Assembly: GCA_017546125.1 (NCBI GenBank)
Contig: JAFYXO010000027.1
Coordinates: 1-64,000 of the forward strand
Reading direction: 5' to 3'
Origin: Bacteroidales bacterium
Lineage (GTDB): Bacteria; Bacteroidota; Bacteroidia; Bacteroidales; UBA932
Length of the DNA: 64,000 nt
The notes below the pieces were generated by a model. It was given only the letters and a program-made list of their open reading frames with translations. It was not told the DNA's origin and ran no database searches. Shown here one piece after another: positions 12,675-61,405 of this stretch. The translations under genes and the position numbers were made by a program. Within the stretch, counting starts at the first letter, position 1. Every line of letters begins with the position of its first letter.

Positions 12675-12687
12675 TATGATGCAATAA

Positions 12688-12718
12688 TTTGTTAATCACA
12701 CGATTTTGATTATCTTTG
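12688..12718 (+). promoter_or_regulatory. Promoter for the second C10/DUF4249 couple
   Basis: TTTG (12688-12691), 19 bases, then TATCTTTG (12711-12718) is a full match to the Bacteroidota vegetative promoter. It lies 30 bases before the second C10 start, so copy 2 and the TonB receptor genes can be transcribed apart from copy 1. Confidence 0.8.
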
Positions 12719-12747
12719 TTATCAGTAACATAAAGTAATAATTCACT

Positions 12748-42541: not shown

Positions 42542-43030
42542 ATGTTTCCGGCCGTAGACGATCTTCTGCCGATAGCACAGGTGTTGAAATCTTACGGCAC
42601 CCAGGGGGAGGTTTTGATCAGCTTCCTCGCTGCGATGCCTGACGATATTGACCTTAACGAACCGGTGTTCCTCATCCCAGAGGGACTGCCGGTTCCTTTT
42701 TTTATTGAAGACCTCCAGTTCAGAGGAACCTCCAAAGCCCTTGTCAAATTTGAAGACATCGATTCGATGAAAGAGGCTGAGGAGATTACAAACCAAAAAA
42801 TCTACTACCCCGCACACATGTGCTACAGCGAAGAGTCTGACTCGCTTCTGGGGTACACCCTCTACAATCAGAGTGGAGAAAAAGTGGGTATTATCACCCA
42901 GGTTCACGACTTTTCAGGCAACACTTGCCTCGAGGTAAACGGCAATCTTATTCCGCTGCATCCCGATCTGATCATCAAACTTCAGAAAAAAGGGAGAAAA
43001 ATTACTGTAAATATACCCGAAGGACTATAA
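42542..43030 (+). CDS. rimM: 16S rRNA processing protein RimM
   Basis: A 162-residue maturation factor for the 30S head, which binds S19. The RimM N-terminal barrel (PIAQVLKSYGTQGEVLISF) is followed by a PRC-barrel domain (about 90-160, SLLGYTLYNQSGEKVGII; LIPLHPDLIIKL). It lies in an operon with rpsP. No trmD follows; the next gene opens a different operon. Confidence 0.92.
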   Translation: MFPAVDDLLPIAQVLKSYGTQGEVLISFLAAMPDDIDLNEPVFLIPEGLPVPFFIEDLQFRGTSKALVKFEDIDSMKEAEEITNQKIYYPAHMCYSEESDSLLGYTLYNQSGEKVGIITQVHDFSGNTCLEVNGNLIPLHPDLIIKLQKKGRKITVNIPEGL

Positions 43031-43048
43031 TTTCCAGGCCGTAATATA

Positions 43049-43080
43049 TTTGCATAAATAGAATTATATTCATATTTTTG
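43049..43080 (+). promoter_or_regulatory. Promoter of the caspase/FISUMP operon
   Basis: TTTG (43049-43052), 20 bases, TATTTTTG (43073-43080), 34 bases before the first ATG. A second TATATTTG box overlaps at 43045-43052. No other promoter is obvious until 61325, because the genes that follow are nearly contiguous. Confidence 0.65.
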
Positions 43081-43114
43081 CTTCGATTAATCAAACATTT
43101 TAGGCCTAATTATC

Positions 43115-43918
43115 ATGAAAAGAACTTTTGCAACGATTCTCGTTGTTGCATTGTCTTTACTTTCACCGCTCGTCTCGCGCGCTGATGTAAGGATTGTGAC
43201 TGTTCGCGCTGAAGGAAAGTGCGAGCTGTCAAGATTTATCACCATCGAACAAGCAGAACAAAAGGCTCTACAAGAGGCTAAGCAGGAGGCACTTAGAAAA
43301 GCTGGTGTCCCGGAGAACGTATGGTCTGTTTTCGGCACTGTGACCGAAAGCAACGGCCAGGCATTCAAACAAGCCTACTCCGAAATGAGTGTTCTGGCTG
43401 TCGGCGGTCTGGTAAATATTCTTGAAACACCCAGCTACAGCAGACAATACTCCGAAAGGGAAAAGAGGGAGTATGTGGTATGTAAAATCCACGCTGAGGT
43501 AAAAAAAGGGGACGAAGTGGACAAATCATACCAGATAAAAGTGGATGGTATCGCCTCTGTCTACAAAGTGGATGAAGCTTTCAGTATGAACATTCAAGTC
43601 TCATCTGACTCATTTGTAAGGGTTTTCTGGTTTAATGAGGCAGACGGTTCCCAATTGCTTCCAAACGCATACGAACAAAACAACTTTGTACCCAAAGGTA
43701 CTACAAGAGTTTTCCCTGATTCTGAATTGTATGACTTGGGTATAGCAAAAAATGACCCTACCAAAGAGACAGAATTGGTAAATGTTATGGTAGTGGCTAC
43801 CAAAACAGATTATCCTTTCTTCGAGGACACTGTATCATTTGAATCCCTGCTCAAGTGGATTTATGACATCCCTGCATCTGACAGATGCGCATCTTTTGAA
43901 ACATTTTATATTAAATAA
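43115..43918 (+). CDS. Exported protein with DUF4384-like domain
   Basis: A 267-residue protein with a signal peptide (1-23). An N-terminal region (about 24-125) has a charged helix (AEQKALQEAKQEALRKAG) like those of LPP20/FlgT-type domains. A C-terminal DUF4384-like beta-sandwich (about 135-240) has YQIKVDGIASVYKVDEAFSM, SDSFVRVFWFNEADGS and LLPNAYEQNNFVPKG. In other bacteria DUF4384 is often fused to caspase-like proteases; here the caspase-like gene starts 2 bases downstream, which supports a shared complex. The domain call is by motif feel, not a search. Confidence 0.65.
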   Translation: MKRTFATILVVALSLLSPLVSRADVRIVTVRAEGKCELSRFITIEQAEQKALQEAKQEALRKAGVPENVWSVFGTVTESNGQAFKQAYSEMSVLAVGGLVNILETPSYSRQYSEREKREYVVCKIHAEVKKGDEVDKSYQIKVDGIASVYKVDEAFSMNIQVSSDSFVRVFWFNEADGSQLLPNAYEQNNFVPKGTTRVFPDSELYDLGIAKNDPTKETELVNVMVVATKTDYPFFEDTVSFESLLKWIYDIPASDRCASFETFYIK

Positions 43919-43920
43919 TT

Positions 43921-46512
43921 ATGAAAAGGATAGTTTCTTTTTTACTTGCATCGTTGATCGCCACAACATTGATGGCACAAACAAGCAACAGTTTCAAATG
44001 GCTACGTAATGTAGACGAACAAACAGTACGTCCTTACAGCGAAGGTCTCTCTGCCTTTTTTGAAAATGGCAAATGGGGATTTTTGAATCTTGATGGAAAA
44101 GTGGCAATCAAACCTGAGTTTGATGAAGTTACAGACTTTGAAAAGGGTTTGAGTATTGTCAAGAAAGATGGAAAATATGGCGCAATCAACACCAATGGCG
44201 GACATATATTCCCTATCACATTTGACAAATTGACCAAATTCAATGGCGGCATCGCATTGGCAGAAGAGAATGGATTGAAATACTATCTTTACTCAAACGG
44301 CAAGAGACAGCCATTGTCAAACAAATACACATTCTATCCTTATAGCGAGGGTTTTGCCAGAATCAAAAGTACAAAAAACGGCAAATGGGGTTATATTGAC
44401 AGTGATGGCATCATCGTTATCAACCCTACCTATACATACGCATCAGATTTTCATGGTGGGTTTGCAATCGTATCAAAAGGTGAAGAGAAATTCCTGATCA
44501 CAGCCAAAGGTTCTAAGAAAAATACCACATTCCCTGTAGACACCACCCTATCCCTTAACTCTGACGGAGTTGGTTTCTTCCAGGACAGAACCAAGAAATA
44601 CGTATTTGTGGACAAATACCTTGTTCCAAGTAAGATGACATACGTTATGAAGCACGATTTCTCTGAAGGTTATGCACTAACCAAAGATCTCAGAGGCAAA
44701 CTTGCTTTTATCGACAATACCGGTGCAATAAGACTTGATCTTTCATCTTATGATGATGCAGGTGACTTCTCTGAAGGGAAAGCATGGGTTATGAAAAATG
44801 GCAAATACGGCTACATCAATACACGTGGCTCACTTGTCATTGATACCATCTTCACCTACGCTTCCAATTTCAAGGATGGTCAGGCATATGTCGCTTCCGG
44901 CTCAAGACAAGGTATCGTAAAGATGGCCGGCAAGAATGAGAAATTTCCACAATTGGCCATCAATAACATCAGACTGGTAGAGACAAATGACAACGGAAAA
45001 GTGGACGTTGACGAGAACTTTACCATCGAAATGGAGGTATCAAACCCTGGTGATGATATCCTTAATGGCGCAAAAATAACCCTTGGCGGTGATGCCGAGC
45101 AGTCAAGCTGGTTCTCTTATGAGAGCATCTCCACCGATCTTGGAAATATCCCTGCAGGTGACAGCAGACTGGTTACATTCACTGGAAAATCAAATACAGA
45201 ACTTCAGACAGAAGATATTCTTCTCTCACTAAAAGGTGAGGCGAGCAACCTTTTCACCTCTGTACAAACCCCATTCACATTTGCTGCAGCAGGTATCAAC
45301 GCTTGTAAACCAGTTATCGAGTCTTACTGGGCACACAACACTGACCACACCCCTATCAGACCTGGAAAAGAGGCTACCCTTATGATTACAGTGAAGAATG
45401 AGGGTCAGGATGCAGCCAAAGATGTAACCATCTCACTCCAATGGCCTGACAATATTGAGTTTAAGGAGAGTGTACTAAAGATACCTTTCATCAAACCATC
45501 AGAGACCAAAACAATCTCGACATTGTTTACAGTGAAGAGTGACTCCCTAAATGCAAATGCCAATACAGATTTCTCAGTGGTGGCTCATATCGATGAGTTT
45601 ACACACAAGAGAAAAGATGTGAAATATTTCTCATTTGCATCTGGAAAACTCAACTCACAAATCAACCTTCTTACAGGTGCAGGTGCTATGGTTCAAATGG
45701 CTATGGCCCAAAACAACACACAGCAAAAGGTTGTTAAAGAGTCTGAACTTGTAATTGGCCTTAACCAAGTGACTATGAAGTCTGAAAACCGATTTGCACT
45801 TGTAATCGGTAATGAAGACTACAATGGCGGAAAACGTGATGCATCTTATCAGCCAAACGTAGAGTTTGCAGAGCAGGATGCTACCACATTTGCAAGATTT
45901 GCTGAAGATATGATGGGTGTACCAAGCCAGAACATCATCCTTTTGAAAAATGCGACATACGCTCAAATGAAACAGAACCTGAGCAAGATCGAACGTGTAG
46001 CCAAACAAAATCCGGGACAGGTAGAACTTATCGTTTACTATGCAGGTCACGGTCAGGTGGATGGCGACTCGAAAGAGAGCTACCTTATCCCTGTCGATGT
46101 GAGCATCACAGCACCTACTGCAGGTATCAAACTTGAAGAGTTCTACAGCACACTGAGCAGCTGCAACGCCAAGAGAACCATCGTATTCCTGGATGCTTGT
46201 TACAGTGGTGTAGGTCGTGGTATCATCATCAGAGCTAAAGAGACCCCTGTAAAAGGCAATCTTGTCGTTATGACTGCAACCTCATCTTCACAAAGATCTA
46301 TGCCTTACCACGACAAGAGCCATGGTCTGTTTACATACTTCCTATTGAAAACCATGAAGGATCACAATGGTGACATCAGCATCGGAGACCTTTACAATGA
46401 GGTTTCTGCTACTGTTAAAACCAAATCGATCTGGATTAACAACATGGAACAAACCCCAGAACTTATCAATGGTCCTGACATCGCTTCAGGATGGAAAGAG
46501 TGGAAATTTTAA
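43921..46512 (+). CDS. Exported WG-repeat caspase-like protease (C14)
   Basis: An 863-residue protein. A signal peptide (1-20) precedes about seven WG-type repeats (about 35-340; units such as FENGKWGFLNLDGKVAIKPE and KNGKYGYINTRGSLVID). Two CARDB-like Ig modules follow (about 345-460 and 465-600; VKNEGQDAAKDVTISLQWPD). A caspase-like domain fills about 620-855: RFALVIGNEDY, H710 in YYAGHG and C760 in DACYSG. Both catalytic residues are present, so it should be an active cysteine protease, probably with Arg/Lys or Asp specificity that cannot be read. There is no membrane anchor beyond the signal peptide, so it is periplasmic or secreted. Confidence 0.9.
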   Translation: MKRIVSFLLASLIATTLMAQTSNSFKWLRNVDEQTVRPYSEGLSAFFENGKWGFLNLDGKVAIKPEFDEVTDFEKGLSIVKKDGKYGAINTNGGHIFPITFDKLTKFNGGIALAEENGLKYYLYSNGKRQPLSNKYTFYPYSEGFARIKSTKNGKWGYIDSDGIIVINPTYTYASDFHGGFAIVSKGEEKFLITAKGSKKNTTFPVDTTLSLNSDGVGFFQDRTKKYVFVDKYLVPSKMTYVMKHDFSEGYALTKDLRGKLAFIDNTGAIRLDLSSYDDAGDFSEGKAWVMKNGKYGYINTRGSLVIDTIFTYASNFKDGQAYVASGSRQGIVKMAGKNEKFPQLAINNIRLVETNDNGKVDVDENFTIEMEVSNPGDDILNGAKITLGGDAEQSSWFSYESISTDLGNIPAGDSRLVTFTGKSNTELQTEDILLSLKGEASNLFTSVQTPFTFAAAGINACKPVIESYWAHNTDHTPIRPGKEATLMITVKNEGQDAAKDVTISLQWPDNIEFKESVLKIPFIKPSETKTISTLFTVKSDSLNANANTDFSVVAHIDEFTHKRKDVKYFSFASGKLNSQINLLTGAGAMVQMAMAQNNTQQKVVKESELVIGLNQVTMKSENRFALVIGNEDYNGGKRDASYQPNVEFAEQDATTFARFAEDMMGVPSQNIILLKNATYAQMKQNLSKIERVAKQNPGQVELIVYYAGHGQVDGDSKESYLIPVDVSITAPTAGIKLEEFYSTLSSCNAKRTIVFLDACYSGVGRGIIIRAKETPVKGNLVVMTATSSSQRSMPYHDKSHGLFTYFLLKTMKDHNGDISIGDLYNEVSATVKTKSIWINNMEQTPELINGPDIASGWKEWKF

Positions 46513-46526
46513 TTTGAAACATCACT

Positions 46527-47153
46527 ATGATTAAAAAAGCCTCGATAGCCTTACTTGTTACCATATTTTTGACATTGGTTGGTACATACAAGGCATCTGC
46601 ACAGTTGGTCAAAGTATCTGTCGGCGTCAATGGAGGAGCACTCATGACACAAATGGCGACAGACCCTGCACCATCAACACCTATGTACATCAGCGGATAC
46701 GGTGGAGCCTTTCTATCCGCACATATAGGAAAAGCCCTAACTGTTCGCGCAGCGGCCAACTACGCTATGCAAGGTGGCCAATACGAAGTTAACGGAACAA
46801 GTGTCACAGTAGATCAGTCCTACATACAGATACCTATGACACTGTTGCTTAACGCCGGCAGCTTCCTCTCATTTGAGGTGGGCCTAGTGCAGAACATCCT
46901 TATGGGTTCCAAATATGTAGAGAAAGGTGAGACAGAGTATATCGTTCAACCCGACCCCGGTGCATTGAAATACAATTTCGGTGCAGTGGGTGGCGTCTGC
47001 TTCAACTTTGGAAAAGTCGTATTCCTGAATTTGAGATATTGCTACGGCTTGAGCAACTCTTATGTAATTCATGGAAAAGGCTTCCCTGTAAGTACGATAT
47101 CGGCTGGTCTGGGCTTTAACATTTATACATCTAAGAAATCAGCATTCAGATAA
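46527..47153 (+). CDS. Outer membrane beta-barrel protein
   Basis: A 208-residue protein with a signal peptide (about 1-25, ending ASAQ) and a strand-rich barrel pattern (VKVSVGVNGGALMTQMAT, LTVRAAANYAMQGGQYEV, VGLVQNILMGSKYV, ISAGLGFNIY), similar to PorT/OmpW-like families of Bacteroidota. It sits 14 bases after the caspase-like gene and 14 before the LRR lipoprotein. It may anchor or export its neighbours, which is inference from position. Confidence 0.7.
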   Translation: MIKKASIALLVTIFLTLVGTYKASAQLVKVSVGVNGGALMTQMATDPAPSTPMYISGYGGAFLSAHIGKALTVRAAANYAMQGGQYEVNGTSVTVDQSYIQIPMTLLLNAGSFLSFEVGLVQNILMGSKYVEKGETEYIVQPDPGALKYNFGAVGGVCFNFGKVVFLNLRYCYGLSNSYVIHGKGFPVSTISAGLGFNIYTSKKSAFR

Positions 47154-47167
47154 TAGAACATACGATT

Positions 47168-50100
47168 ATGAAGAGAGCATTAAAAGTAACCTTACTAGCA
47201 ATAACTACCTTTGTAACAATTGCTTCTATATCAGGATGCAAAGTAGACGAAGGAGGCATTTATGGTGCATTCCCATATATGAATGTACCATTTCAAGACA
47301 CACTGATCTCAAAAGTACACCAGACTGTAACTATCCCCCTCGAGAGCAATAGAACGCTGAGTGCCAATGTCACTGATGCTCTATGGCTGAAAGCGAGAGT
47401 GGAGGGTACAAACCTTATCCTTGTGGCAGAGCCCAACGATCTGGAGACAAACAGAACAGCCACTGTAGAGATCAGCACTATAAACTCTACCATCAAGGCC
47501 ACTATTATTGTGACCCAGGATGCATCAGGAGAACTTACCATAAAAGGCGACCTTATTCTAAAAACTGTCGATGATATAGAGACAAACACATATACCAAAA
47601 CCACAGAGAGCCTCATAATTGGTGACGTTATCTCCATATATGCCGCTACAGCAGACGCTGTCAAACCTGCTGCTACAAATGGAGATGTAACATTCCCTTT
47701 CGGCGGCTACAGATATCTTACAGTCGCGCCATCCAATATCTCCAACAAAGAGATATCACTATTGGATGAGCAGATTCACATGATAGGCCAAGGGACAATG
47801 GCACTGGCAAACACAAAGGTGACCAGATTCCCTTACAATATCATACGCAATAATGATGTAACAGGTGCATATGTGGTAGCATGCGAATTGTCATCACTTC
47901 CCACAGCTGATTCACTCAGCGCTCTTACTGCACTCACAGATCTTGATCTAACTAAAAATCATATCGAGAATATAACTCCTCTAGCTGGACTTAGCGGGCT
48001 CAAATCCCTTAACATCTCAAGCAATAAAGTGGAAGATATCTCTGCTTTGGCAGATCTTCAGAACCTCCAGAATCTGGTGCTTGACAATAACGATATCACA
48101 GATATTGAGCCTATTGCCAAGCTTCCAAATATAGGCAACCTGTCTCTTAAGGGACTTCCTATCCTCCCTACCCAGTACGACATCCTCAGAGAATCACTTC
48201 CTGCTGAATGTATCGTGGATACTACCGGAATACGTGAAGAAGATTCACCTCTTGTCAATATCGGACTACCTTCAGAGACCAGCCACAGCGAGAGTTCATT
48301 TACAGTGAGTGCCAAGCTCAAAAAGTTCGATGAAGGAATTGTAAATAATCCTGGATTCTATTGGGGCAGTTCGAAGAAACTTGCTCAGATGGAGTTTATT
48401 TCTGCCACATATTCAGAATCAGACAGCACCATATCTGCGGAGATATCAAATGTGGATACTCAAAACAACGTATATTTCTTCAGAGGATACGCTGAAAACA
48501 ATGCCGGCAAGTCATTCAGCGATATCAACAGATTTGGTGATATTGTCAATGTCGGCAACTATAAAATCAACAACAACGAAGAGTTTGAAGAGTTCTATAA
48601 CGCTACAATAACCCAGATTGAAGGATCACTGATTATAGGATACGGAATCTTAGGGGGAAACGGTGAAATCATTGATGTACCTGTAGGAGACACTGTCTAC
48701 AAATTCGGCAGATCAGATGATATAACATCCCTCCAGCAAATGAGCAATGTAAGCCGCATTAAAGATGGCCTATATGTGATATTGACCCCTATAACCTCAG
48801 TGAATGAGATATCCAAGATAGAGGAACTCACCACACTTTGGCTGGAAGGTAATAAAATCAACAATATCCCTGAATTGTCCAACATTTCCGGGCTCAGGAC
48901 TATCAATATAGCGAGAAACAACATCTCGGATATAAAACCACTTCTCAAACTTACCGAACTTGACACCTTATATCTTGGTAATGAGAAATACATTTATGAT
49001 GAGACCAACAGAATCGGTGTGCTTACAGGTCTGGAGAAACTCACAAACCTCAAATACCTGGATCTAAGCGGTCTTCCTCTCCACAACTGGCAGGTAAAGA
49101 ACCTTAGAGATGAGATGCCCGGCTGTAATATAGTCTTTACTCCCGGCAACAGAACCCCATTCCTCCCTGTTGTCAGATCTGAGAGCGCGAGTATCTCGGG
49201 TTCTAACGTAACAATAAAAGGTTACCTTGAAAACAAAGGTGAAGGACAAGTGCTCGAGTACGGTTTCTACTGGGGTAAAGATCTTGAAAACCTCACCAGA
49301 GCGGTGGCCGGTAACGGAGATATCTCAAATGGAACCACATTCTCATGCGGACTTGAAATACCGGATGAAGACAGGTATTTCTATATACCTTACGTAGTAA
49401 ACACATACGGAGAGGTGAAAGGGATGAACAGTCTTGAAGAATTTGATTATAAGGAGTTCACCCTAAGCTACACTAACCTGAGCGAAAGGGGTACATCAAA
49501 CTCATATATAGTATCCAATGCCGGCAGATATACATTCAAGGCAAATGTAATAGGTAACGGCAGCGCAGGTATTATCGATACTGCCAACTTCCACACCACA
49601 GATGTAAACATCTACCCTACCAATGCAGGCCTTGTATGGCAGACATCTGATGATATTATTCAGGATATTGTATTCCTAAGCGAATCTCAGGAAATCCTGA
49701 TCACCACCAGCGGCAAAGAGGGTAATGCACTTGTTGCTGCTATCGATGGCAATAACAATATCCTCTGGAGCTGGCATATCTGGTGTACCGACAAACCTGT
49801 AGACCACAAATATATCAACTACAATGGACAGAGATTCACTGTTCAGGACCGTAACCTCGGTGCCACAAGAGCTGACAGAGGGACTGGTAATGAGTGGATA
49901 GAATCGACAGGGCTGTTCTTCCAATGGGGTAGAAAAGATCCGATAAATTCTAACCAATACAACACTACCCAATCAAAACTCACTATCGAAGAGACTGTCC
50001 TTTATCCTACCATATTCCCTATACACATGGAGTGGATGGCAAATAGGAATAAATACTTATGGACAAGAAAAGTTAAAACCATCTATGACCCATGTCCTGT

Positions 50101-50842
50101 AGGTTACAAGGTAGCAAATAGAGACGTATGGACAGGCTTCTCTACTACTGGTATGAGTACCTCCAGCCACTCGGAAATAAACATTAAAGGGACCTGGGAT
50201 AACGGATTCTACTTTATCTATGATGGCACAAACACTGCCTGGTATCCTGCTGCATATAACATGGGGTATTCTGAAAACTCGGGTAGAGTCTGGTATAGCG
50301 ATGGTGACTATGAGTATGCATTCAATAATGGCTGGGATGAAGGAAATGACTGGACCTGCCCACCACTGATGGAATACTACTATAATACAGATATTGATGC
50401 AAGTGTACGTTTTGATTACTGCTGGTCACATACCGGCTCACCTTCTTATGTCCGATGTATGCTTGATGGCAATTTCGTTGACGCACGACTTCCTGAGGTA
50501 GTATCTGATGAAGTGGTTGTAATCAACAGCAACTCCGCTAAAGCTGTCGGATATGTGAACTCACACGGAGAGTCAGAAACAACAGCCCGTGGATTTGTAT
50601 GGGGCAAACAAGAGTACCCAACAATTACTGCCGACAGACACATCGAAGTTCCTGCAGGTGATGAAGGCTTTATGGGCCGCTTTGAAGCTGTAATAGAAGG
50701 TCTCCAACCAGGAACCACCTACTACGTAAGGCCATATGCTACCAGCTCACTTGGTACAGCATACGGAAAACCTATGAAGATAAAAACCAAAGATGGCGGT
50801 AGCAGTGAGGATATCGGACGTGATGATAATTTTGAATGGTAA
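47168..50842 (+). CDS. Large LRR and FISUMP-domain surface lipoprotein
   Basis: A 1224-residue lipoprotein; the signal ends in SISGC (C24). In order: a BACON-like domain (about 35-115, ending IVTQDASG), a first leucine-rich block (about 240-330, LTDLDLTKNHIENITPLAGL), a fibronectin-like module (about 350-455), a second LRR block (about 550-660), another fibronectin-like module, a FISUMP-type domain (about 790-1110; WSWHIWCTD, DRNLGATRADRGTG, QWGRKDP, YDPCPVGYKV), a last fibronectin-like module (GFVWGKQEYPT, YYVRPYATSSLGTAYG), and an acidic tail ending NFEW. LRRs here usually bind protein or glycan partners. Confidence 0.8.
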   Translation: MKRALKVTLLAITTFVTIASISGCKVDEGGIYGAFPYMNVPFQDTLISKVHQTVTIPLESNRTLSANVTDALWLKARVEGTNLILVAEPNDLETNRTATVEISTINSTIKATIIVTQDASGELTIKGDLILKTVDDIETNTYTKTTESLIIGDVISIYAATADAVKPAATNGDVTFPFGGYRYLTVAPSNISNKEISLLDEQIHMIGQGTMALANTKVTRFPYNIIRNNDVTGAYVVACELSSLPTADSLSALTALTDLDLTKNHIENITPLAGLSGLKSLNISSNKVEDISALADLQNLQNLVLDNNDITDIEPIAKLPNIGNLSLKGLPILPTQYDILRESLPAECIVDTTGIREEDSPLVNIGLPSETSHSESSFTVSAKLKKFDEGIVNNPGFYWGSSKKLAQMEFISATYSESDSTISAEISNVDTQNNVYFFRGYAENNAGKSFSDINRFGDIVNVGNYKINNNEEFEEFYNATITQIEGSLIIGYGILGGNGEIIDVPVGDTVYKFGRSDDITSLQQMSNVSRIKDGLYVILTPITSVNEISKIEELTTLWLEGNKINNIPELSNISGLRTINIARNNISDIKPLLKLTELDTLYLGNEKYIYDETNRIGVLTGLEKLTNLKYLDLSGLPLHNWQVKNLRDEMPGCNIVFTPGNRTPFLPVVRSESASISGSNVTIKGYLENKGEGQVLEYGFYWGKDLENLTRAVAGNGDISNGTTFSCGLEIPDEDRYFYIPYVVNTYGEVKGMNSLEEFDYKEFTLSYTNLSERGTSNSYIVSNAGRYTFKANVIGNGSAGIIDTANFHTTDVNIYPTNAGLVWQTSDDIIQDIVFLSESQEILITTSGKEGNALVAAIDGNNNILWSWHIWCTDKPVDHKYINYNGQRFTVQDRNLGATRADRGTGNEWIESTGLFFQWGRKDPINSNQYNTTQSKLTIEETVLYPTIFPIHMEWMANRNKYLWTRKVKTIYDPCPVGYKVANRDVWTGFSTTGMSTSSHSEINIKGTWDNGFYFIYDGTNTAWYPAAYNMGYSENSGRVWYSDGDYEYAFNNGWDEGNDWTCPPLMEYYYNTDIDASVRFDYCWSHTGSPSYVRCMLDGNFVDARLPEVVSDEVVVINSNSAKAVGYVNSHGESETTARGFVWGKQEYPTITADRHIEVPAGDEGFMGRFEAVIEGLQPGTTYYVRPYATSSLGTAYGKPMKIKTKDGGSSEDIGRDDNFEW

Positions 50843-50861
50843 AATGGGAGGAGATAAGATT

Positions 50862-53800
50862 ATGAAAAAGCTATATTTTTATTCGATAATTTCAGTGGTA
50901 ATCCTCTCACTAATAGGATGTACCCAGAGGGAGGATGTCAAAATCCCCAACCCTACAGTCAAAATGGTCCTCACGGCCGCTACTGAGGGCGATGAAACCA
51001 AAGCTCTTATGGGTGAGATCAATGATGACGACTCCAGAAGTGTACTTTGGGAGCCTGGTGATTCGATAAGGGTAATGTTAGGCGAAGGTGACAATAGTAA
51101 CTATTTGGACACAGCTCTGTTCGTAAACATAACCGCTGAGAACAGCAAAATCGCCACTTTTGAAGGGGAGATTACAAATAACTACCGACACCAACTATTT
51201 GCCAGCTATCCATACTCCATGATGGTCAATAAGTTTACAAATGAATACTGGAATGGAACAAACTGGATATATGACAGATATTTTACTATCCGTCTGTCTC
51301 AAACTCAAATTTACAGGGAAAACAACTTTGCCAAAGAATCTTTCCCTATGTTGGCATACCAAGAGTTGCTAATTCAAAATGGGTATCAACTTAACGATCC
51401 GCTTGAGTTCAAAAATCTTTGTGGAGTATTGGCACTCAATATAGTAGGAGACATCACAGTGAGGTCTATCACTATGACAGCAAAGGACTCTACAGGAAGA
51501 CAAGTGGCTTTATCTGGTTTAGGCCAAATAAAAAGAGATAGTGACAGTTTGTTTACTGCACTGACAATGTTCCCTGTTAGAGCTGATGAATATACTACTA
51601 TGGCTATGGCAGAGGGGATCTCAACAGTCACCTTGGAGTGTCCGGATGTGGAGCTTGACCCCGACATCCCTACCCCATTCCATATCGTCCTTCCTCCCGC
51701 TACATATAGCTCATTCACTCTGACTATTGCCACCACAGATGGAAGAATCATGTTGGTAAATGTAGATAAAGAGCTTGTCATCAACCGATCAAAAGCCAAA
51801 CACACTACACCTCTAACATATGTTGAGACTGTAGCTGTAGACCTTAGCAACAGAGGTACATCCAACTGTTATATAGTACCTGAAGCAGGAGTATATAAAT
51901 TTAGAGCTGATGTCATCGGTAACGGAAATCATGGAATCATTGGTGGAGCCAATTTCCACACATCTGACCCATCCATATCACCCGAAATAGTAAAAATTCT
52001 ATGGAACGACAATAGTGCTGTTTCAGGGGTGGGGCTGAACACTGATGAAGGTTATATATCATTCACCTCTACCGGAAACAAAGGAAATGCACTGATCGCA
52101 GCAATGGATGCAGACAGCACCATCCTTTGGAGCTGGCATATCTGGTGTACTGACAAACCAAAAGAGCACACTTATGTAAACTACGAGGATGAATCATTTA
52201 TAGTTCTCGACAGGAATATCGGAGCTACACGCGCCGACAGAGGTACAGGTGAAGAGTGGAGAGAATCTGTAGGTCTTCACTACCAGTGGGGCAGAAAAGA
52301 TCCGTTTACCTCTTCAAACCTCAACAGATCGGATAATACATTTACCATCGAAAAATCTATCAAGTACCCAACATATCTTGGTCCATGGAGATGGCTTGAT
52401 GAAAATGCGAATGGTTACTATATGAATTATAGCCAGTTGTGGAGTGACTCTCTAAAAACCATATACGATCCATGTCCTGTGGGGTATAAAGTGGCACCAA
52501 GAGCTATATGGACAGGATTTTCAAAGAAGGGATTATCATCTGAATGTAAAGAAATAGATGACTATAATGTATCAGGATCTTTTGATAACGGATGGAATTT
52601 CAAATATGACGGAACAAACACTGCCTGGTACCCAGCTACATCCAACGATGGATTTTCTATAAATCCTTCCGGAAATGTAGGTAAATACTGGTCATCAACA
52701 AGTTATAGCACAAACGAAGCTTATAATCTATATTTCCATTACGGCGACGAATTCAGCCATAACATGACTAACTATAGCGAATCCTCAGGTTATATCAAAG
52801 CTGTCCGCTGCTCTGTAGACGAAGGCTTCATCGACAGGAGTCTCCCAACCATCACCATTGACAAGATTGATGGTATAGGCTATGAGTCTGCTAGGGTTAC
52901 AGCTACAGTATCGGTACCTAATGGTGTATCAGAAGTCACTGGTTCCGGCCTGGTATGGTCTACTTTACATAATCCTACAATAGAGTCTTCACATAATGTA
53001 GCAATTGATACTCTTGATGGAGAATTCTCATACGACATTATCGGTCTTGACGACTTCACCACATACTATGTAAGGGCATACGCAACCAACGCCAATGGCA
53101 CCCAATATAGTGAGGAGAAGTCATTCACCACCAACTACAATGGACCTATCATCAACCTCAGTGAGTCCGGTACAGCAAACTGCTATATAGTACCACCTAC
53201 AGCTGACCACTACTCTATTGACTTGTCTGTGATAGGTAATGGTTCCAAGGGTATTATTGATACCGCAAACTTCCATACAGCAGATGTCTCCCTTGACCCG
53301 GCAAATGTGAAGATAATATGGGCCATAAAGTACGACAACTACTACGGCACATCAAGCACCTCTGAACTTCTCTCATTCAGAGAGTTCAATCAAGAGAAAA
53401 AGACATATCACTTCGTACCTACAGGTGAAGAGGGGAATATTCTCCTGGCTGCTGTTAATGAAAATGACGAGATTATATGGAGCTGGCACCTTTGGATCAC
53501 CGACGAACCTAAGGAACATAACTATATAAATCACGAGGGCAAGATATATACCGTAATGGACCGTAACATCGGCGCCACCCGTGCAGACAGAGGGTCAGGA
53601 GAGCAATGGAGAGAGTCATCCGGATTCGTATATCAGTGGGGTAGAAAAGATCCATTCCACGATGGTATTGAGCAAACTTCCAACACTCCATTTTTGATAT
53701 ATGAGAGTATATTGTATCCTACTTACATATCAGCCTCGTGGGATTGGGTATACCACGAAGATCCTGTAGACAGGAAATACTTGTGGAGTTCAAAAACCAA

Positions 53801-54542
53801 GACCATATATGACCCTTGTCCTGTAGGATATAAAGTGGCTCCTAAAGACACATGGACAGGATTTACCACTACAGGTGAGGGTGCCCAAAAGAAGATCTAC
53901 ATAAACATGTCTGGCAATTGGGATAAAGGTTACAACTTCAAATATGACGGGACCAACACAGCATGGTATCCAAATACAATGTACGCCTATTGGACTCCTT
54001 GGTGGCAAGAAAATAGTGGTGGCCTCTGGAGTGGCGATTCAGATACCTGGGATAATAGGGCTCACTATATGGACTATTACTACAATAACGATATGGAACT
54101 GTCTGTAAATATATCTAGTAACCTAAATTCCGATATCGGCTACGGAAGAGCAGTCCGCTGCGTTATCGACTCAGACCACCACGACGTCGCATTCCCTTAC
54201 GTGAGCACACTTTCTGTTGACAACATCACATCCAACTCTGCAGACGCAAGCGCGACATTGGTATCTGAGGGTATCGACTCCGTAACTGAAAGAGGCTTTG
54301 TATATGGCAAACAGGAGAATCCAACCATAGCCAACACCAAAGTCACAGTCGATACAGAGGGTTCTATGATTGGTAATTATAATACTACTATCACAGCTCT
54401 TGAGCCTGGTACTACTTATTATATCAGAGCATACGCTACTAATGGTCACGGCACATCATACGGCAAATCCATTATGATCCGAACCAAAGATGGTGGCAGC
54501 AGTGAAAAATACGATCGTGATGAAGAGGATTATGAATGGTAA
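50862..54542 (+). CDS. Fimbrillin-like lipoprotein with two FISUMP domains (1)
   Basis: A 1226-residue lipoprotein; the signal ends in LIGC before TQREDVKIPNP. An N-terminal fimbrillin (Mfa-like) region spans about 20-315 (KALMGEINDDDSRSVLWEPG, FKNLCGVLALNIVG), then FISUMP domain 1 (about 320-640), a fibronectin-like module, FISUMP domain 2 (about 745-1090), a fibronectin-like module and an acidic tail ending DYEW. I start at the ATG at 50862, which follows a GGGAGGAGATAAG ribosome site and gives a clean lipoprotein signal. Such proteins form or decorate surface fibres in Bacteroidales; the fibre role is family knowledge applied by inference. Confidence 0.8.
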   Translation: MKKLYFYSIISVVILSLIGCTQREDVKIPNPTVKMVLTAATEGDETKALMGEINDDDSRSVLWEPGDSIRVMLGEGDNSNYLDTALFVNITAENSKIATFEGEITNNYRHQLFASYPYSMMVNKFTNEYWNGTNWIYDRYFTIRLSQTQIYRENNFAKESFPMLAYQELLIQNGYQLNDPLEFKNLCGVLALNIVGDITVRSITMTAKDSTGRQVALSGLGQIKRDSDSLFTALTMFPVRADEYTTMAMAEGISTVTLECPDVELDPDIPTPFHIVLPPATYSSFTLTIATTDGRIMLVNVDKELVINRSKAKHTTPLTYVETVAVDLSNRGTSNCYIVPEAGVYKFRADVIGNGNHGIIGGANFHTSDPSISPEIVKILWNDNSAVSGVGLNTDEGYISFTSTGNKGNALIAAMDADSTILWSWHIWCTDKPKEHTYVNYEDESFIVLDRNIGATRADRGTGEEWRESVGLHYQWGRKDPFTSSNLNRSDNTFTIEKSIKYPTYLGPWRWLDENANGYYMNYSQLWSDSLKTIYDPCPVGYKVAPRAIWTGFSKKGLSSECKEIDDYNVSGSFDNGWNFKYDGTNTAWYPATSNDGFSINPSGNVGKYWSSTSYSTNEAYNLYFHYGDEFSHNMTNYSESSGYIKAVRCSVDEGFIDRSLPTITIDKIDGIGYESARVTATVSVPNGVSEVTGSGLVWSTLHNPTIESSHNVAIDTLDGEFSYDIIGLDDFTTYYVRAYATNANGTQYSEEKSFTTNYNGPIINLSESGTANCYIVPPTADHYSIDLSVIGNGSKGIIDTANFHTADVSLDPANVKIIWAIKYDNYYGTSSTSELLSFREFNQEKKTYHFVPTGEEGNILLAAVNENDEIIWSWHLWITDEPKEHNYINHEGKIYTVMDRNIGATRADRGSGEQWRESSGFVYQWGRKDPFHDGIEQTSNTPFLIYESILYPTYISASWDWVYHEDPVDRKYLWSSKTKTIYDPCPVGYKVAPKDTWTGFTTTGEGAQKKIYINMSGNWDKGYNFKYDGTNTAWYPNTMYAYWTPWWQENSGGLWSGDSDTWDNRAHYMDYYYNNDMELSVNISSNLNSDIGYGRAVRCVIDSDHHDVAFPYVSTLSVDNITSNSADASATLVSEGIDSVTERGFVYGKQENPTIANTKVTVDTEGSMIGNYNTTITALEPGTTYYIRAYATNGHGTSYGKSIMIRTKDGGSSEKYDRDEEDYEW

Positions 54543-54562
54543 AAATGGGAGGAGATAAGACT

Positions 54563-57500
54563 ATGAAAAGAATAAATCTATACTTTGTAATTTCAGCACT
54601 ACTCCTCTCAGCTATCGGCTGTACCCAGAGAGAGGATACTAAAATACCTAACCCCACCTTCCAGACAAGCTTCACAGCTGTTATGGAGGGGGGTGACCAG
54701 ACCAAAGCACTATTGGGAGAGACCCTTGATGACGGATCCAGAGAGCTTCTTTGGGAGCCAGGGGACTCCATCAAGATATTCTGCCGCTCTGTAGACTATG
54801 TGGCCAACTACACCGGACACATCTATGTAAATAGAGAGACACAAAAATCTACCCAAGCAGTTTTCGAGGGTAGTATGTGCCGCTCATACGACGTTCTGGC
54901 CGTCTACCCACACTGCCTCTACTCATACCAGCCATATTGGGAGAGTGATGGAAGAGAGTACTATACCAGCCATATTGACTTCCCTAAAGTACAGAAATAC
55001 AGGGAGAACAATATCGCTAAAGAGTCTGTCCCTATGGCAGCCTTCAAAACCCTCAAACCTGAAGAAAACTACACTCTTCAGGGCAATCTTGAGTTCAGGA
55101 ACCTCTATGGTGTACTTGTCCTTAATCTTACTGGCTCGGATAAAGTAAGATCGATCACCATTACAGCCAAGGACTCATTGGGGCAAGTGGCTACCCTTTC
55201 GGGCTTTGGTGAGATCATTAGGACAGAAGACTCTTTCGATAAAGTCAAAATGCACATTGTAACTGATGACAAAATGGCCGAATCCGGTCACCCTGCCATC
55301 ACACTTGAGTGCCCTGATGTACAGCTCAACACTGTCGTACCTACGCCGTTCCATATCGCACTTCCTCCAGCCAAATACAGTTCGTTCTCACTGTTGATTA
55401 CGACAGCTGATGGCAAAATGATGATAAAAGAGTCAAATAAGGAGCTTGTCATCAAGCGCTCTACCCTTAAGCATACAGTGCCACTCACCTACACTGAGAC
55501 CATCCCTGTAAACCTTAGTGAGAGGGGGACCTCAAACTCTTATATCGTAGAGAAAGCCGGCATATATACATTTGATGCATCTGTAATCGGTAATGGTGCC
55601 ATAGGTATCAAACCCTACGCCAATTTCCACACATCTGACCCAGCCATCTCCCCCGCATCAGTTGAGCTTCTATGGGAAGATACCAATGGTCTCATTTCAG
55701 CCCTGAACTATGATTCAGAGGAGAAAAAGGTGAGCTTTATGCACTCAGGTATAGAGGGAAATGCACTGATAGCGGTCAAGGATGAAGAAGGTGTCATCCT
55801 CTGGAGCTGGCACATCTGGTGCACTGACAAGCCGGTGGAGCACACCTACATAAACTATCAGAACCAGACATTCAATGTGATGGACCGTAACCTCGGAGCT
55901 ACACGCGCTGACAGAGGGACTGGAGAAGAATGGATCGAATCTGTAGGTCTGCACTATCAGTGGGGTAGAAAGGATCCGTTTACATACAATCCAAACAGTG
56001 ATGAGCGCACAATCTCACGTCAACTGACCATAGAAGAATCTATTCTATTCCCGACAAGGGTTTGTACGAACAGCAGATGGCTTATCACCGAGAATATGTA
56101 CCTGTGGTCAGATTCTCTTAAAACTATATACGACCCTTGCCCTGTAGGGTACAAAGTAGCACCTAAGGCTATATGGTCCGGATTTACCACCACAGGACAA
56201 AATAGCCAAAACTCTGAAGAATATGAGGTTTCAGGCACATACGACAAAGGGTGGAATTTTATTTATGATGGAACCAATACCGCCTGGTACCCCGCTAATG
56301 TTCGCGCTGATTACTGGAGTGGTGTATATAAGCAATATCCTGGCGAAGAGAACGGAAGATATTGGTCTTCTTCAAACAATGGATCTCCATACCAATTATC
56401 ATTCTATCATTATGATGAATTCAACACTAATATATACTCCGACCAAAGCAAATGGGAGCTATCTGATCCTTACAACGTCCGCTGTGTAGCTGATGAGGGT
56501 TATGTGGACACTTCACTTCCGACACTCTCTACACCTGCGGTAACGAATATCGGCAACACTACCGCCACCTTTAGTGCTGAGGCCACAGATCAGGGTGGAT
56601 CTGCAGTAATCCAGAAAGGATTTGTATGGAGCAAGAGCCACAAACCTACAGTGGATCTGCCAACCAAGATTATCGTATCTTCAGATACCGGCAAATACTC
56701 AGCAAATATCTCAAATCTGGAACAGATGTCGGGATATTATGTAAGGGCATTTGCTACCAACAGCCACGGCACAGGCTACAGTGAGGAGTTCTTCTTCTCT
56801 ACCAAATACGACGGTATCCCTACCAACCTGAGCAACAACGGCACATCTAACTGTTACATAGTCTCTGAAGAGGGTTACTACGGATTTGATGCCTCTATTA
56901 TAGGTAATGGTTCCAAAGGTATAATTCCTGGCGCAGGATTCCATACATCAGATCCATCCATCTCACCTGTTACAGCTGAGATAGTATGGGAAGATACAGA
57001 GGATCTGATCACCTATCTCTACTTCGACAACACCAAGAAGACCATAAACTTCTGTGCATCAGGTAAAGAGGGTAATGCCCTTATCGCTGCTAAAGATGAG
57101 GAGGGTACTGTCCTTTGGAGCTGGCACATCTGGTGTACAGACAAGCCTGCCGACCACTCATACTTCAACTTCAATATGAAGAACTTCATCGTAATGGACC
57201 GCAATATAGGTGCCACCCGTGCAGACAGAGGCACAGGGGGAGAGTGGAGAGAGTCTGCCGGTCTTTTCTACCAGTGGGGCAGAAAAGATCCATTCTCACC
57301 TAACAGATATAACTACATCTATTATACAACTATATCTCTTAAGGAGTCCATTTCACACCCTAATACAATGGTTGTAGTTGAAGGAGGTAATTGGTGTAGC
57401 AATAGTATTAACAGCAACTGGAACGAAGAGCAGAAGACTATCTATGATCCTTGTCCTCTCGGCTATAGAATCTCCCCATCAGACACTTGGTCGGCATTCT

Positions 57501-58150
57501 CTAAAACAGGGCAATATACGGACCAACTTGCACAATTCAATGTCTCAGGCTCTTGGGACTATGGTTTCAACTTCATATACGATGGCACCAACACCGCATG
57601 GTTCCCTCAGACATACATAGGCTACTATGGTGAGACCGAAACCGGTATAGGTGAGTATTGGCTCCCATCTTCACATGACAATTCGGGACGTAAATTTGGA
57701 TACAACACCAATGGTGTAAATCTATTCTTTGACTGGTATGAACACACATCCAGAGGGCACGCTGTCCGCTGTGTGAAAGACCAGGTGTACAATGACCCAA
57801 GTATGCCAAACGTCCTCACCACAGGGGTATCCAATATCACAGAGTCTCAGGCCAAATTTACCGGCGAAGTGACTACTGAAGGTACATTCGGTGTCTCTGA
57901 GAGGGGCTTTGTCTGGAATATCAATGCAGACGGCAAAACACTGAACGTGGATACAGCCAATAAAGAGGTGGTCGGCAGCGGTATGGGCAGCTTCGAGACT
58001 ACTGTCATCTCACTCAAGCCTGGTACAAACTACTTCTTCAGAAGTTATGCTATCAGTACCAATGGCACTGTATATGGTGAGACACTCTATTTCAAAACTA
58101 AAGAAACAGGTTCTAACGAAGATCTAGGAGAAGACGAACATGAATGGTAG
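54563..58150 (+). CDS. Fimbrillin-like lipoprotein with two FISUMP domains (2)
   Basis: A 1195-residue paralogue of the preceding protein. The signal ends in AIGC before TQREDTKIPNP; fimbrillin-like region about 20-315 (KALLGETLDDGSRELLWEPG, FRNLYGVLVLNLTG), FISUMP 1 (about 320-640), a fibronectin-like module (KGFVWSKSHKPT), FISUMP 2 (about 745-1080), a last fibronectin-like module and the tail GSNEDLGEDEHEW. The same GGGAGGAGATAAG ribosome site precedes the ATG at 54563. It ends with TAG, overlapping the next start by 11 bases. Confidence 0.8.
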   Translation: MKRINLYFVISALLLSAIGCTQREDTKIPNPTFQTSFTAVMEGGDQTKALLGETLDDGSRELLWEPGDSIKIFCRSVDYVANYTGHIYVNRETQKSTQAVFEGSMCRSYDVLAVYPHCLYSYQPYWESDGREYYTSHIDFPKVQKYRENNIAKESVPMAAFKTLKPEENYTLQGNLEFRNLYGVLVLNLTGSDKVRSITITAKDSLGQVATLSGFGEIIRTEDSFDKVKMHIVTDDKMAESGHPAITLECPDVQLNTVVPTPFHIALPPAKYSSFSLLITTADGKMMIKESNKELVIKRSTLKHTVPLTYTETIPVNLSERGTSNSYIVEKAGIYTFDASVIGNGAIGIKPYANFHTSDPAISPASVELLWEDTNGLISALNYDSEEKKVSFMHSGIEGNALIAVKDEEGVILWSWHIWCTDKPVEHTYINYQNQTFNVMDRNLGATRADRGTGEEWIESVGLHYQWGRKDPFTYNPNSDERTISRQLTIEESILFPTRVCTNSRWLITENMYLWSDSLKTIYDPCPVGYKVAPKAIWSGFTTTGQNSQNSEEYEVSGTYDKGWNFIYDGTNTAWYPANVRADYWSGVYKQYPGEENGRYWSSSNNGSPYQLSFYHYDEFNTNIYSDQSKWELSDPYNVRCVADEGYVDTSLPTLSTPAVTNIGNTTATFSAEATDQGGSAVIQKGFVWSKSHKPTVDLPTKIIVSSDTGKYSANISNLEQMSGYYVRAFATNSHGTGYSEEFFFSTKYDGIPTNLSNNGTSNCYIVSEEGYYGFDASIIGNGSKGIIPGAGFHTSDPSISPVTAEIVWEDTEDLITYLYFDNTKKTINFCASGKEGNALIAAKDEEGTVLWSWHIWCTDKPADHSYFNFNMKNFIVMDRNIGATRADRGTGGEWRESAGLFYQWGRKDPFSPNRYNYIYYTTISLKESISHPNTMVVVEGGNWCSNSINSNWNEEQKTIYDPCPLGYRISPSDTWSAFSKTGQYTDQLAQFNVSGSWDYGFNFIYDGTNTAWFPQTYIGYYGETETGIGEYWLPSSHDNSGRKFGYNTNGVNLFFDWYEHTSRGHAVRCVKDQVYNDPSMPNVLTTGVSNITESQAKFTGEVTTEGTFGVSERGFVWNINADGKTLNVDTANKEVVGSGMGSFETTVISLKPGTNYFFRSYAISTNGTVYGETLYFKTKETGSNEDLGEDEHEW

Positions 58151-61100
58151 AATAATATTTTCAGTAATAGCAGCACTCGTATTGGGATTGAGCAGCTGTA
58201 CAGAGAAAGGGCAGGATCTTGAAATAGCCCCAAAAGAGCATTTTGTATTCAAGGCTACCATAGAGGAGTCGGACCTGACCAAAACCACCCTGGGTGAATA
58301 CCAGGATGACGGGACCACCAGAAGTGTCCTATGGGAACCTATGGACTCCATAGGTATATAGTGTGACCACTGGTACGGATTTGACCCATTTGTAAACAGG
58401 AACGAGTTCGTCAGCTCAGTAGCTGTATTTGAGGGTGAGACATCTTCAGGCAGTGTACACTATGCACTCTACCCATTCTCTCACGAGGTGGAATACTACT
58501 ACGACAATTATGAAAACCAGCGTCAGTACCATCTGAACCTCCCACAGAAACAGATCTACTCTGAGAACACTTTCTCGAGAAAATCCTTCCCAATGGTGGG
58601 TAGAAAGTATGCCGGTGACGAGAAGTTTACGTTCAAGAATCTGTGTGGAGTACTTGTAGTACAGCTTACAGGTAGTGAAACTGTAAAGAGTATCACATTC
58701 TCAAGCCTTAACACTGAAGGTAAACCTATGCCTGTAAGTGGCCACGCCAGGGTAAATTTGAACTACGATGAGGTTCCTACACTTGTAATTGACACAGAGG
58801 TATACAATAAATTTCCGGTATATGAGAATGTCACACTGGTATGTAACGAGGGTGTAGCTCTTAACCCTTCTACACCTACACCTTTTTACATTGTCCTCCC
58901 CCCAGGGACATACCACTCTCCACAGCTGATTATCTCCACCGCATCGGGTAAGATGATGCTAAAAGAGTCCGACAATCCACTTACTATCCAGAGATCGAGA
59001 AGTGCTAAGGTAACACCTATGACCTTCACAGAGACCATTCCTGTAAATCTTAGTGAGAGGGGCACATCAAACTCTTATATAGTATCAGAAAGCGGCATTT
59101 ACTCGTTTGATGCCTCAGTAATCGGCAATGGCAGTGCAGGTATCATCCCAAATGCGGCCTTCCACACATCAGATCCAAGCATCTCCCCCGCAAGTGTGGA
59201 ACTGCTATGGGAAGACATATCCGGCATCATCTCAGGACTGGCATACAACAGTGATGAAAAAAGAATCTCTTTTATGTCTCACGGAGTGGAGGGTAATGCC
59301 CTTGTAGCTGCCAAGGATGCCAATGGGACCATCCTCTGGAGCTGGCACATCTGGTGTACCGACACCCCTGCAGAGCACATATACATAAACCATCAGAACC
59401 AATACTTTAGAGTCTTGGACCGCAATCTCGGTGCCACACGTGCAGACCGCGGCACAGGTGGAGAAGACTGGATGGATGCAGTAGGTCTCCACTACCAATG
59501 GGGAAGAAAAGACCCACTCATCAACAAATGTGCTACCATCGGATACCAACTCTCCATTCAGGAGAGTATCGAATTTGCCACACGCTTGTGTAGCCAACAT
59601 CAATGGATGTACGATATAAATCCAAGATTGTGGACAGACACCACCAAAACTATCTACGACCCATGCCCAGTAGGTTATAAAGTATCACCCAATGCCATAT
59701 GGAGCGGCTTCCTGCATGACGGAAAGATAAACTCCCAGCGTGAAAATGATATAAATAAATCCGGCTCTTTCCACAGAGGATGGGATTTCTACTATGACGG
59801 GGCCAATACCGCATACTACCCTACCACCGAACAGGGCAGTTATTGGGGCCTCAACTATTCCCCATCCCAAGAACAGGCATATTACTGGTCATCAACAAAT
59901 TCATGGGATACTCCTAAAGGGCTGTACTTCAGATACACAGACTCCTACAATCTTGATACGCACTTAGAATACAATTGGGGCACAGGTTATCCTCTTAGTG
60001 TCCGCTGCGTCGCAGATGAGGGGTACATTGATCCTACTCTGCCTGTGGTGGATACTGTCTTCGTATCTTCAATTACAGAGTATGATGCTTTGGCCCAATG
60101 CAGCATAGTGACACCGGGTTCATCTGAAGTAATATCGAAAGGTGTAGTGTGGAGCAAAAATCCTAATCCTACCATCGATCTAAGCACCAAAACAGAGAAT
60201 AATGACAACTCATCAAGTTTTACCTCTGTTGTTACAGGGCTTGAATCTTTCACCACCTACTACATCAGGGCATACGCCACCAATAGTTATGGTACTGCCT
60301 ATGGTCCTGAAGTCGAATTCAGCACTACATACAGCGGAGATGCTACCGATCTTAGTGCTATAGAGAGTGCCAACAGCTATATTGTCAATGACGTATATCC
60401 TGTATATAAATTCCGTGCTGTAAAAGGTAACAGCTCTGAATCACTCTCAGATGCCTTCGTGGGAAATGTGGTATGGGAATCATACGGTACGTCAGAGTCT
60501 ATAAGGCCAGGTGATCTGATAGACAAGGTACTTTATCACGACGGCTATATCTATTTCAAACTTGACGAAGCCGGTAAAGAGGGTAACGCCCTTATCGCTG
60601 TCAAGAACACTAAAGGTGAGATCCTGTGGAGCTGGCACATCTGGATGACGGACACCCCTGAAGAGCACACATATGCAAACGGAGAAGCTGTCCTTATGGA
60701 CCGTAACCTGGGTGCTGTATCAGCCAGCCCGGGAGATGTACAGGCCCTCGGTCTGCTGTACCAATGGGGTAGAAAGGATCCGTTCCTTGGCAGCTCTTCT
60801 ACCACAGAACCTATTGTTGCAGCATCTACTATAGTGTGGCCTGAGTCTGAATTTTACACTACCCATGGAAACATTGAGTATGTCACAAGCCATCCTACCA
60901 CATATATCAGATCTCTTGATTATAACGAAAATTGGGATTGGCTATATGTTCATGACGATACTCTATGGGGTGAAGAGAAGACCATCTACGACCCTTGCCC
61001 TGCAGGATGGAAAGTTGCATCAATGAATGAATTCAGTAATCATTGGTCTAATGACAACTTCAAATCTCTACCTCCACTTGATAACGTAAATCACGGATTC

Positions 61101-61325
61101 CTCGTAACACTCAAATCAGGCAGTGAAGCATGGTATCCGTTGTCAGGAGGAAGATATATCCATGGTGCCTTGCATGATATTAATAACATATGTAAAATAT
61201 GGAGTAGCAAAAGTAGTTATAACAACAATAGTTACAGTTTTTACATCTGGATAACTGGAACAACCGCTACATGTCATTCATGGAAAGCAACTGCCAACAG
61301 CATCCGCTGCCAGAAGATTCAGTAA
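58140..61325 (+). pseudogene. Fimbrillin/FISUMP lipoprotein gene broken by in-frame TAG
   Basis: A third paralogue, 1061 residues if read through. The first 73 codons encode a lipoprotein signal (GLSSC) and the opening fimbrillin stretch KTTLGEYQDDGTTRSVLWEP up to MDSIGI, then TAG at 58359-58361. The same frame continues without a break (CDHWYGFDPFVNRNEFVSS) through a fimbrillin-like region, two FISUMP-type domains and one fibronectin-like module to a TAA. In the neighbour the stop position corresponds to a phenylalanine (DSIKIFC), so a one-base change from a Tyr codon is likely. The 3' part alone lacks a signal peptide. TAG is used as a normal stop by the preceding gene and by pepD, so recoding is unlikely. 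It also lacks the acidic EW tail. Confidence 0.8.
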
Positions 61326-61333
61326 ATAAGAGC

Positions 61334-61405
61334 CCCCCGGTCGGGCCGGGGGAGCCCTCTAACTAATATGAAATACCGCGGTCCTATCATGGCCGCGTTT
61401 TTTTT
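61334..61405. terminator. Two hairpins between convergent operons
   Basis: CCCCCGG pairs with CCGGGGG (61334-61352, 5-base loop). A second hairpin, CGCGGTC with GGCCGCG (61377-61397), is followed by eight T residues. The second ends the 18-kb plus-strand operon and overlaps the end of the phosphohexomutase gene. Confidence 0.8.

Follow-up and report, generated by a model that had tools for sequence, protein, structure and literature searches.

An exported orthocaspase encoded with surface lipoproteins in one family of Bacteroidales

We find that the gene for an exported orthocaspase is associated, in one family of uncultured Bacteroidales of gut type, with genes for surface lipoproteins and that this association, as read from gene neighborhoods, is real and conserved; it is apparently undescribed, while its individual parts are ordinary. 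We analyzed a stretch of 64,000 nucleotides (the window) on contig C20 of a draft genome (1.86 Mb, 93% complete), which contains genes A to G and the following features.

43049-43080, + strand: Bacteroidales-type promoter, TTTG-N20-TAnnTTTG, exact motif match
43115-43918, + strand: gene A, secreted DUF4384 protein, 267 aa (Pfam DUF4384, 2.1e-10; predicted Sec signal peptide)
43921-46512, + strand: gene B, exported protein with WG repeats, two Ig-like domains (CARDB, DUF11) and a C14 caspase domain (Pfam), 863 aa
45790-46464, + strand: C14 caspase domain of B (Pfam Peptidase_C14)
46048-46050, + strand: His710 of B, in YYAGHG, catalytic dyad
46192-46194, + strand: Asp758 of B, in DACYSG, acidic pocket residue of D-x-C
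46198-46200, + strand: Cys760 of B, in DACYSG, catalytic dyad
46527-47153, + strand: gene C, small outer-membrane beta-barrel, 208 aa (OMP_b-brl_2, 1.9e-11)
47168-50842, + strand: gene D, BACON/LRR/FISUMP-like lipoprotein, 1224 aa (lipobox ISGC; LRR_4, 1.2e-22; weak BACON)
50862-54542, + strand: gene E, lipoprotein with a fimbrillin-like N-domain and two FISUMP-FN3 modules, 1226 aa (lipobox SLIGC; fn3, 9.5e-6)
54563-58150, + strand: gene F, lipoprotein of E-like architecture (46% identity to E over the full length)
58140-61325, + strand: gene G, E/F-like, broken by an in-frame TAG, ending with the last FISUMP-like module (Fib_succ_major, 8.1e-5)
61377-61405, + strand: intrinsic terminator at the operon end, 7-bp G+C-rich stem, then a T run

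The first-pass annotation had proposed a seven-gene cluster on the + strand at 43115-61325 with one promoter and, at its far end, one terminator, and we recovered all of these. The genes are separated by 2, 14, 14, 19, 20 and -11 bases. The promoter is an exact match to the Bacteroidales -33/-7 consensus, TTTG-N20-TATTTTTG, and is the sole + strand match within the cluster (43000-61400 scanned); the whole window has 8 matches, compared to 1.9 expected from shuffles. The terminator hairpin (61377-61397) and its T run face a convergent phosphomannomutase gene. From this arrangement we take the operon of seven genes to be real, and the layout suggests a single transcript for A to G. Elsewhere in the window, at 10243-15197, four successive same-strand genes of ∼400 aa have a low GC content (35-41% versus ∼45%) and were possibly acquired.

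The product of gene B matches WG_beta_rep (3.8e-47), CARDB (1.4e-7), DUF11 (1.6e-7) and Peptidase_C14 (4.1e-22) in Pfam; the last match scores 79.4 bits against a curated cut-off of 21.4, which places B in family C14. It carries a predicted Sec signal peptide. The His-Cys dyad and the D-x-C motif are invariant, being retained in all listed caspase-bearing homologs of B. A search of the PDB with the whole protein or with the caspase domain alone gave no relevant match. B is a clan CD cysteine protease, as are gingipains and PorU (C25) and clostripain (C11), with which it would share a basic P1 preference; cleavage after basic residues is documented for C14B enzymes (PMC6426788), and the orthocaspase of B is predicted to cut after Lys or Arg. 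A second type of exported caspase, with a long repeat-like N-terminal region, Ig-like domains and a C14 domain, adjoins a WD40-like/OmpA-like gene in two genomes (L038:12430-17340 and L039:12542-17469).

The lipoproteins encoded by D to G are mosaics of a few modules. In E, F and G, an N-domain precedes a series of repeated FISUMP-like and FN3 modules, and no fimbrillin domain was found in D. The N-domain had no direct match in Pfam, and an alignment of only four E/F/G members gave a 34% profile comparison to Mfa_like_1 proteins. Of 250 genomes surveyed within this bacterial family, 64 contain members of the N-domain family. A profile of 23 members matched genuine Mfa_like_1 proteins (hhalign 93%, 3.5e-7) and, in the PDB, the ‘putative cell adhesion protein’ 4k4k; 3 of the 23 members match Mfa_like_1 in Pfam. 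Because of these profile, Pfam and PDB matches, the label ‘fimbrillin-like’, already applied to these genes in the first-pass annotation, is right but distant. AlphaFold models of E (681 aa, 3 sequences) and of a fimbrillin-like lipoprotein from genus g7 (589 aa, 3 sequences) had pLDDT values of 36 and 33 and were set aside, and our fold calls therefore rest on sequence profiles.

The FISUMP module is recognized weakly, and directly only in G, which falls below the curated cut-offs of both Pfam PF09603 (8e-5, 23.4 versus 33.9 bits) and the NCBIfam model TIGR02145 (6e-4, 20.5 versus 41.65 bits); D, E and F are homologous to G in this module (42-45% identity). G starts at 58140 with the lipobox signal MNGRIIFSVIAALVLGLSSC, and an in-frame TAG at 58359-58361 (codon 74) interrupts a frame that continues to 61325, so that G as assembled is broken and its assembled long ORF (from 58488) lacks a signal peptide. 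Thus, of the three fimbrillin/FISUMP lipoproteins proposed earlier, E and F are intact genes and the third is stop-interrupted; likewise, the proposal that all seven products are exported agrees with the predicted signal peptides and lipoboxes, except for the assembled long ORF of G. An acidic C-terminal tail, E-D-x-G-x-D...E-W-stop, is common to D (50807-50842) and F (58108-58150), with variants on E and on a second copy of the module on contig C19, and might serve as a signal for sorting or processing. A tail of the D/F type is also found on E-family lipoproteins in two genomes in which no caspase was seen (L188:681-3218 and L189:7942-10419).

The survey of gene neighborhoods that the first-pass annotation had suggested indicates that the pairing of B with lipoproteins is also conserved in other genomes, where the gene order varies. 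Among 399 genomes of the family, 16 from three genera (g1, g7 and g23) encode the WG-Ig-Ig-C14 protein, at 17 loci in total, a count that takes in two genomes, G171 and G207, whose B copy is without the C14 domain; it was not found among 393 genomes sampled from the order outside the family. The loci are not fully independent, because all genomes belong to one family. The named relatives are Bacteroidales genomes from metagenomes, among them sheep colon and Candidatus Coprenecus. The DUF4384 gene A adjoins B at 14 of the 17 loci, and the barrel gene C lies within the B locus at 12. Lipoproteins of fimbrillin, BACON/LRR or LRR type stand beside B at 14 of 17, counting a convergent pilus operon in genome G328. 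Strong orthologs of C are confined to B loci (11 of 11, with 250 genomes searched).

Three gene orders were found at these loci. In g1 and g7, the order is (A)-B-C-D-lipoproteins, and D orthologs or remnants lie directly 3′ of C at all ten C-carrying loci of these genera. In g7, an Mfa2/Mfa_like_1 lipoprotein (7.8e-9, 3.7e-6) and then an LRR_EndoS giant come after B-C-D; the g7 counterparts of the lipoproteins match Mfa2 above cut-off. The second copy in the window's own genome (contig C19, L033) has B, C and D at 54, 45 and 38% identity, adjoins an EF-G-like gene, has no DUF4384 gene and is cut by the contig end. In g23, the order C-D-LRR-lipoprotein-lipoprotein-x-A-B is seen in full in G158 and in part in G388 and G372, where the upstream reading stops short of possible C and D genes. 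G328 has the order C-A-B, which converges on a canonical FimA/Mfa2 pilus operon (Mfa2, 1.6e-62). At three loci (G181, G127 and G231), A-B stands without barrel or lipoproteins and adjoins OmpA-like genes. In G171 and G207, B stops cleanly past its second Ig domain and C follows at once; these shortened B genes (L093:6216-8078, in reversed orientation, and L094:5449-7233) have lost the caspase domain, and C, D and the lipoproteins are all intact. A 1197-aa lipoprotein at L130:6542-10135 combines Mfa_like_1, BspA-type LRR, BACON and Peptidase_M64 domains and stands in a fimbrillin operon of the window's own genome.

In G002, a genome of the same genus, tolC-rpsP-rimM runs directly into pmm-def-yqgF and the whole block is missing, so that it occurs in its entirety or not at all. 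Where the block is present, its parts differ in divergence: between the window and G001, identity is 96% for rpsP, 81% for rimM and 79% for tolC, and within the block it is 66% for A, 81% for B, 71% for C and 50% for D. The caspase gene is thus on a par with rimM. In G001, D is fused to E/F-like modules in a single 1700-aa protein, which stands where the window has four lipoproteins. These comparisons show a conserved apparatus and a fast-diverging set of displayed lipoproteins. A diversity-generating retroelement as the source of lipoprotein diversification was rejected, as RVT_1 is absent from the window's genome.

We propose that the operon is an all-or-none cell-envelope block that would display fast-evolving lipoproteins of fimbrillin type, LRR and FISUMP on the outer membrane. 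Its constant part would be A, B and C (the DUF4384 protein, the WG-Ig-Ig-orthocaspase and the small outer-membrane barrel), and its variable, displayed part D to G, with their equivalents at other loci. B may bind the lipoproteins or the barrel through its WG/Ig region, in the periplasm or at the surface, and its orthocaspase domain may then trim or quality-control exposed lipoproteins, as an optional activity lost at some loci. C would serve at the outer membrane as an anchor or receiver of the complex, not as its exporter. The first-pass annotation had tentatively taken the barrel as the route of the lipoproteins, and this was not supported: C has ∼208 aa (∼8 strands), a size class that is not known to form a protein-wide pore, and export of proteins through a barrel of ∼200 aa is unlikely. 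That the block is a functional surface-lipoprotein module we regard as probable, while the proposal in all its parts, from display and binding by B to optional trimming and the anchoring role of C, has in our estimate an even chance of being right. The display proposal is supported by the B-C-D order in g1 and g7, by the re-ordered parts in g23 and the arrangement in G328, by the confinement of C orthologs to B loci and the clean absence of the block in G002, and by the 81% identity of the caspase against 50% for D together with the invariant catalytic residues. It is weakened by the three loci with only A-B and by the loss of the caspase in G171 and G207.

A more specific role for the protease was put forward in the first-pass annotation, namely that the operon's own caspase matures its lipoproteins. 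In its strongest form, B would be a surface-exposed, dedicated maturase of pilin type that cuts the fimbrillin-like lipoproteins after the Lys of T-K-(A/S/T), as an Arg-gingipain does for FimA and Mfa1. The basic-residue preference of C14B enzymes fits this role, and C25 gingipains mature fimbrillins (PMC11316588), while C25 proteases such as PorU and gingipains (PF01364) were absent from three genomes of the genus (G000, G001 and G002), where no gingipain-type maturase was found. Every fimbrillin-like lipoprotein examined at a caspase locus has a T/S/V-K-A/S/T motif near the position of FimA cleavage, ∼25 residues past the lipidated Cys. However, the same motif, with K or R, is common in fimbrillins of caspase-free genomes; because it is general to Bacteroidales fimbrillins, we rejected it as a sign of a caspase substrate. 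Moreover, G002 has fimbrillins with neither B nor C25, and in G171 and G207 the barrel and the motif-bearing lipoproteins are kept where the caspase domain is lost. Since these two loci lost only that domain, it is dispensable for keeping the rest of the operon. Maturation by the operon's caspase was thus not supported, and we consider a dedicated maturase rather unlikely. A C11 clostripain-type protease gene, present elsewhere in the window's genome and shared by G001 and G002, is a rival candidate for maturing the fimbrillin-type lipoproteins. That B cleaves the lipoproteins encoded with it in any manner is possible but doubtful. We would give somewhat less credence to the wider idea that a C14 protease replaced gingipains as the enzyme of maturation or remodeling of fimbrillin-type lipoproteins in a C25-free lineage of Bacteroidales, with a barrel and a DUF4384 partner, in a rapidly swapped lipoprotein cassette.

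The three lipoprotein-free A-B loci, all beside OmpA-like genes, invite the reading that A and B form an independent stress module of the envelope or cell surface (a WG-Ig sensor, an orthocaspase and a DUF4384 protein), and that the lipoproteins are neighbors since surface genes cluster, not substrates. A 2012 survey of prokaryotic metacaspase operons, which counts 14 with OmpA and 16 with surface functions and is silent on fimbrillin in its section on operons (PMC3501461), is in line with this, as are cyanobacterial orthocaspases with fused DUF4384 and FGE-sulfatase domains (PMC8283722), a parallel to the separate genes A and B here. This reading does not account for a barrel exclusive to B loci, nor for B, C and D staying together through re-ordering across three genera, and we hold it as a tentative alternative that is probably not correct. 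A caspase effector of anti-phage defense or cell death is highly improbable: the PADLOC ‘caspase’ model matches B (5.7e-13), but the match covers only the shared protease domain, and A, C and D match no defense model. A defense caspase would be expected to be cytoplasmic and to have system partners, while B carries a Sec signal peptide and adjoins no gene for a cytoplasmic sensor.

Among known systems, the operon resembles the type V pilus loci (mfa1-5, fimA-E) in its run of Sec/SPII lipoproteins with domains, here distant, of the fimbrillin clan, in the Lys/Arg motif past the lipidated Cys, and in its giant lipoproteins with extra C-terminal domains, which resemble type V tip pilins. No protein of the window matched a FimA or Mfa2 model, and a set of stalk (FimA/Mfa1), anchor (Mfa2) and tip was not found in it; a canonical FimA/Mfa2 set occurs only adjacent to the block, in G328. 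Unlike the Mfa-Fim loci, the operon has FISUMP-FN3 and LRR modules and further encodes an exported orthocaspase, a small barrel dedicated to it and a DUF4384 protein, in a genome without a C25 maturase. B itself, of family C14 and with no gingipain or T9SS features seen, is like other prokaryotic orthocaspases (C14B) in its His-Cys dyad, its D-x-C motif, its repeat-type accessory domains and its surface or OmpA neighbors; it differs in being exported and in its WG and Ig architecture, and the DUF4384 partner is a separate gene rather than a fusion. Partnership with a barrel and fimbrillin, LRR or FISUMP lipoproteins is unreported for orthocaspases in the open-access literature searched, which also contained nothing relevant on WG-repeat caspases of Bacteroidota, on FISUMP lipoproteins or on caspase-fimbrial operons. 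The statement of the first-pass annotation that no described system pairs an exported C14 protease with fimbrillin-like lipoproteins is consistent with this search.

Prokaryotic caspase homologs are widespread, often in operon contexts that have yet to be explained; the context described here is specific, repeated and testable, and it bears on how fimbrillin-type lipoproteins are processed in gingipain-free Bacteroidales. If B cuts the lipoproteins, bacterial caspases would have a clear role in surface display that is not one in cell death; if it does not, the caspase-less loci would reveal what the WG-Ig part does alone.
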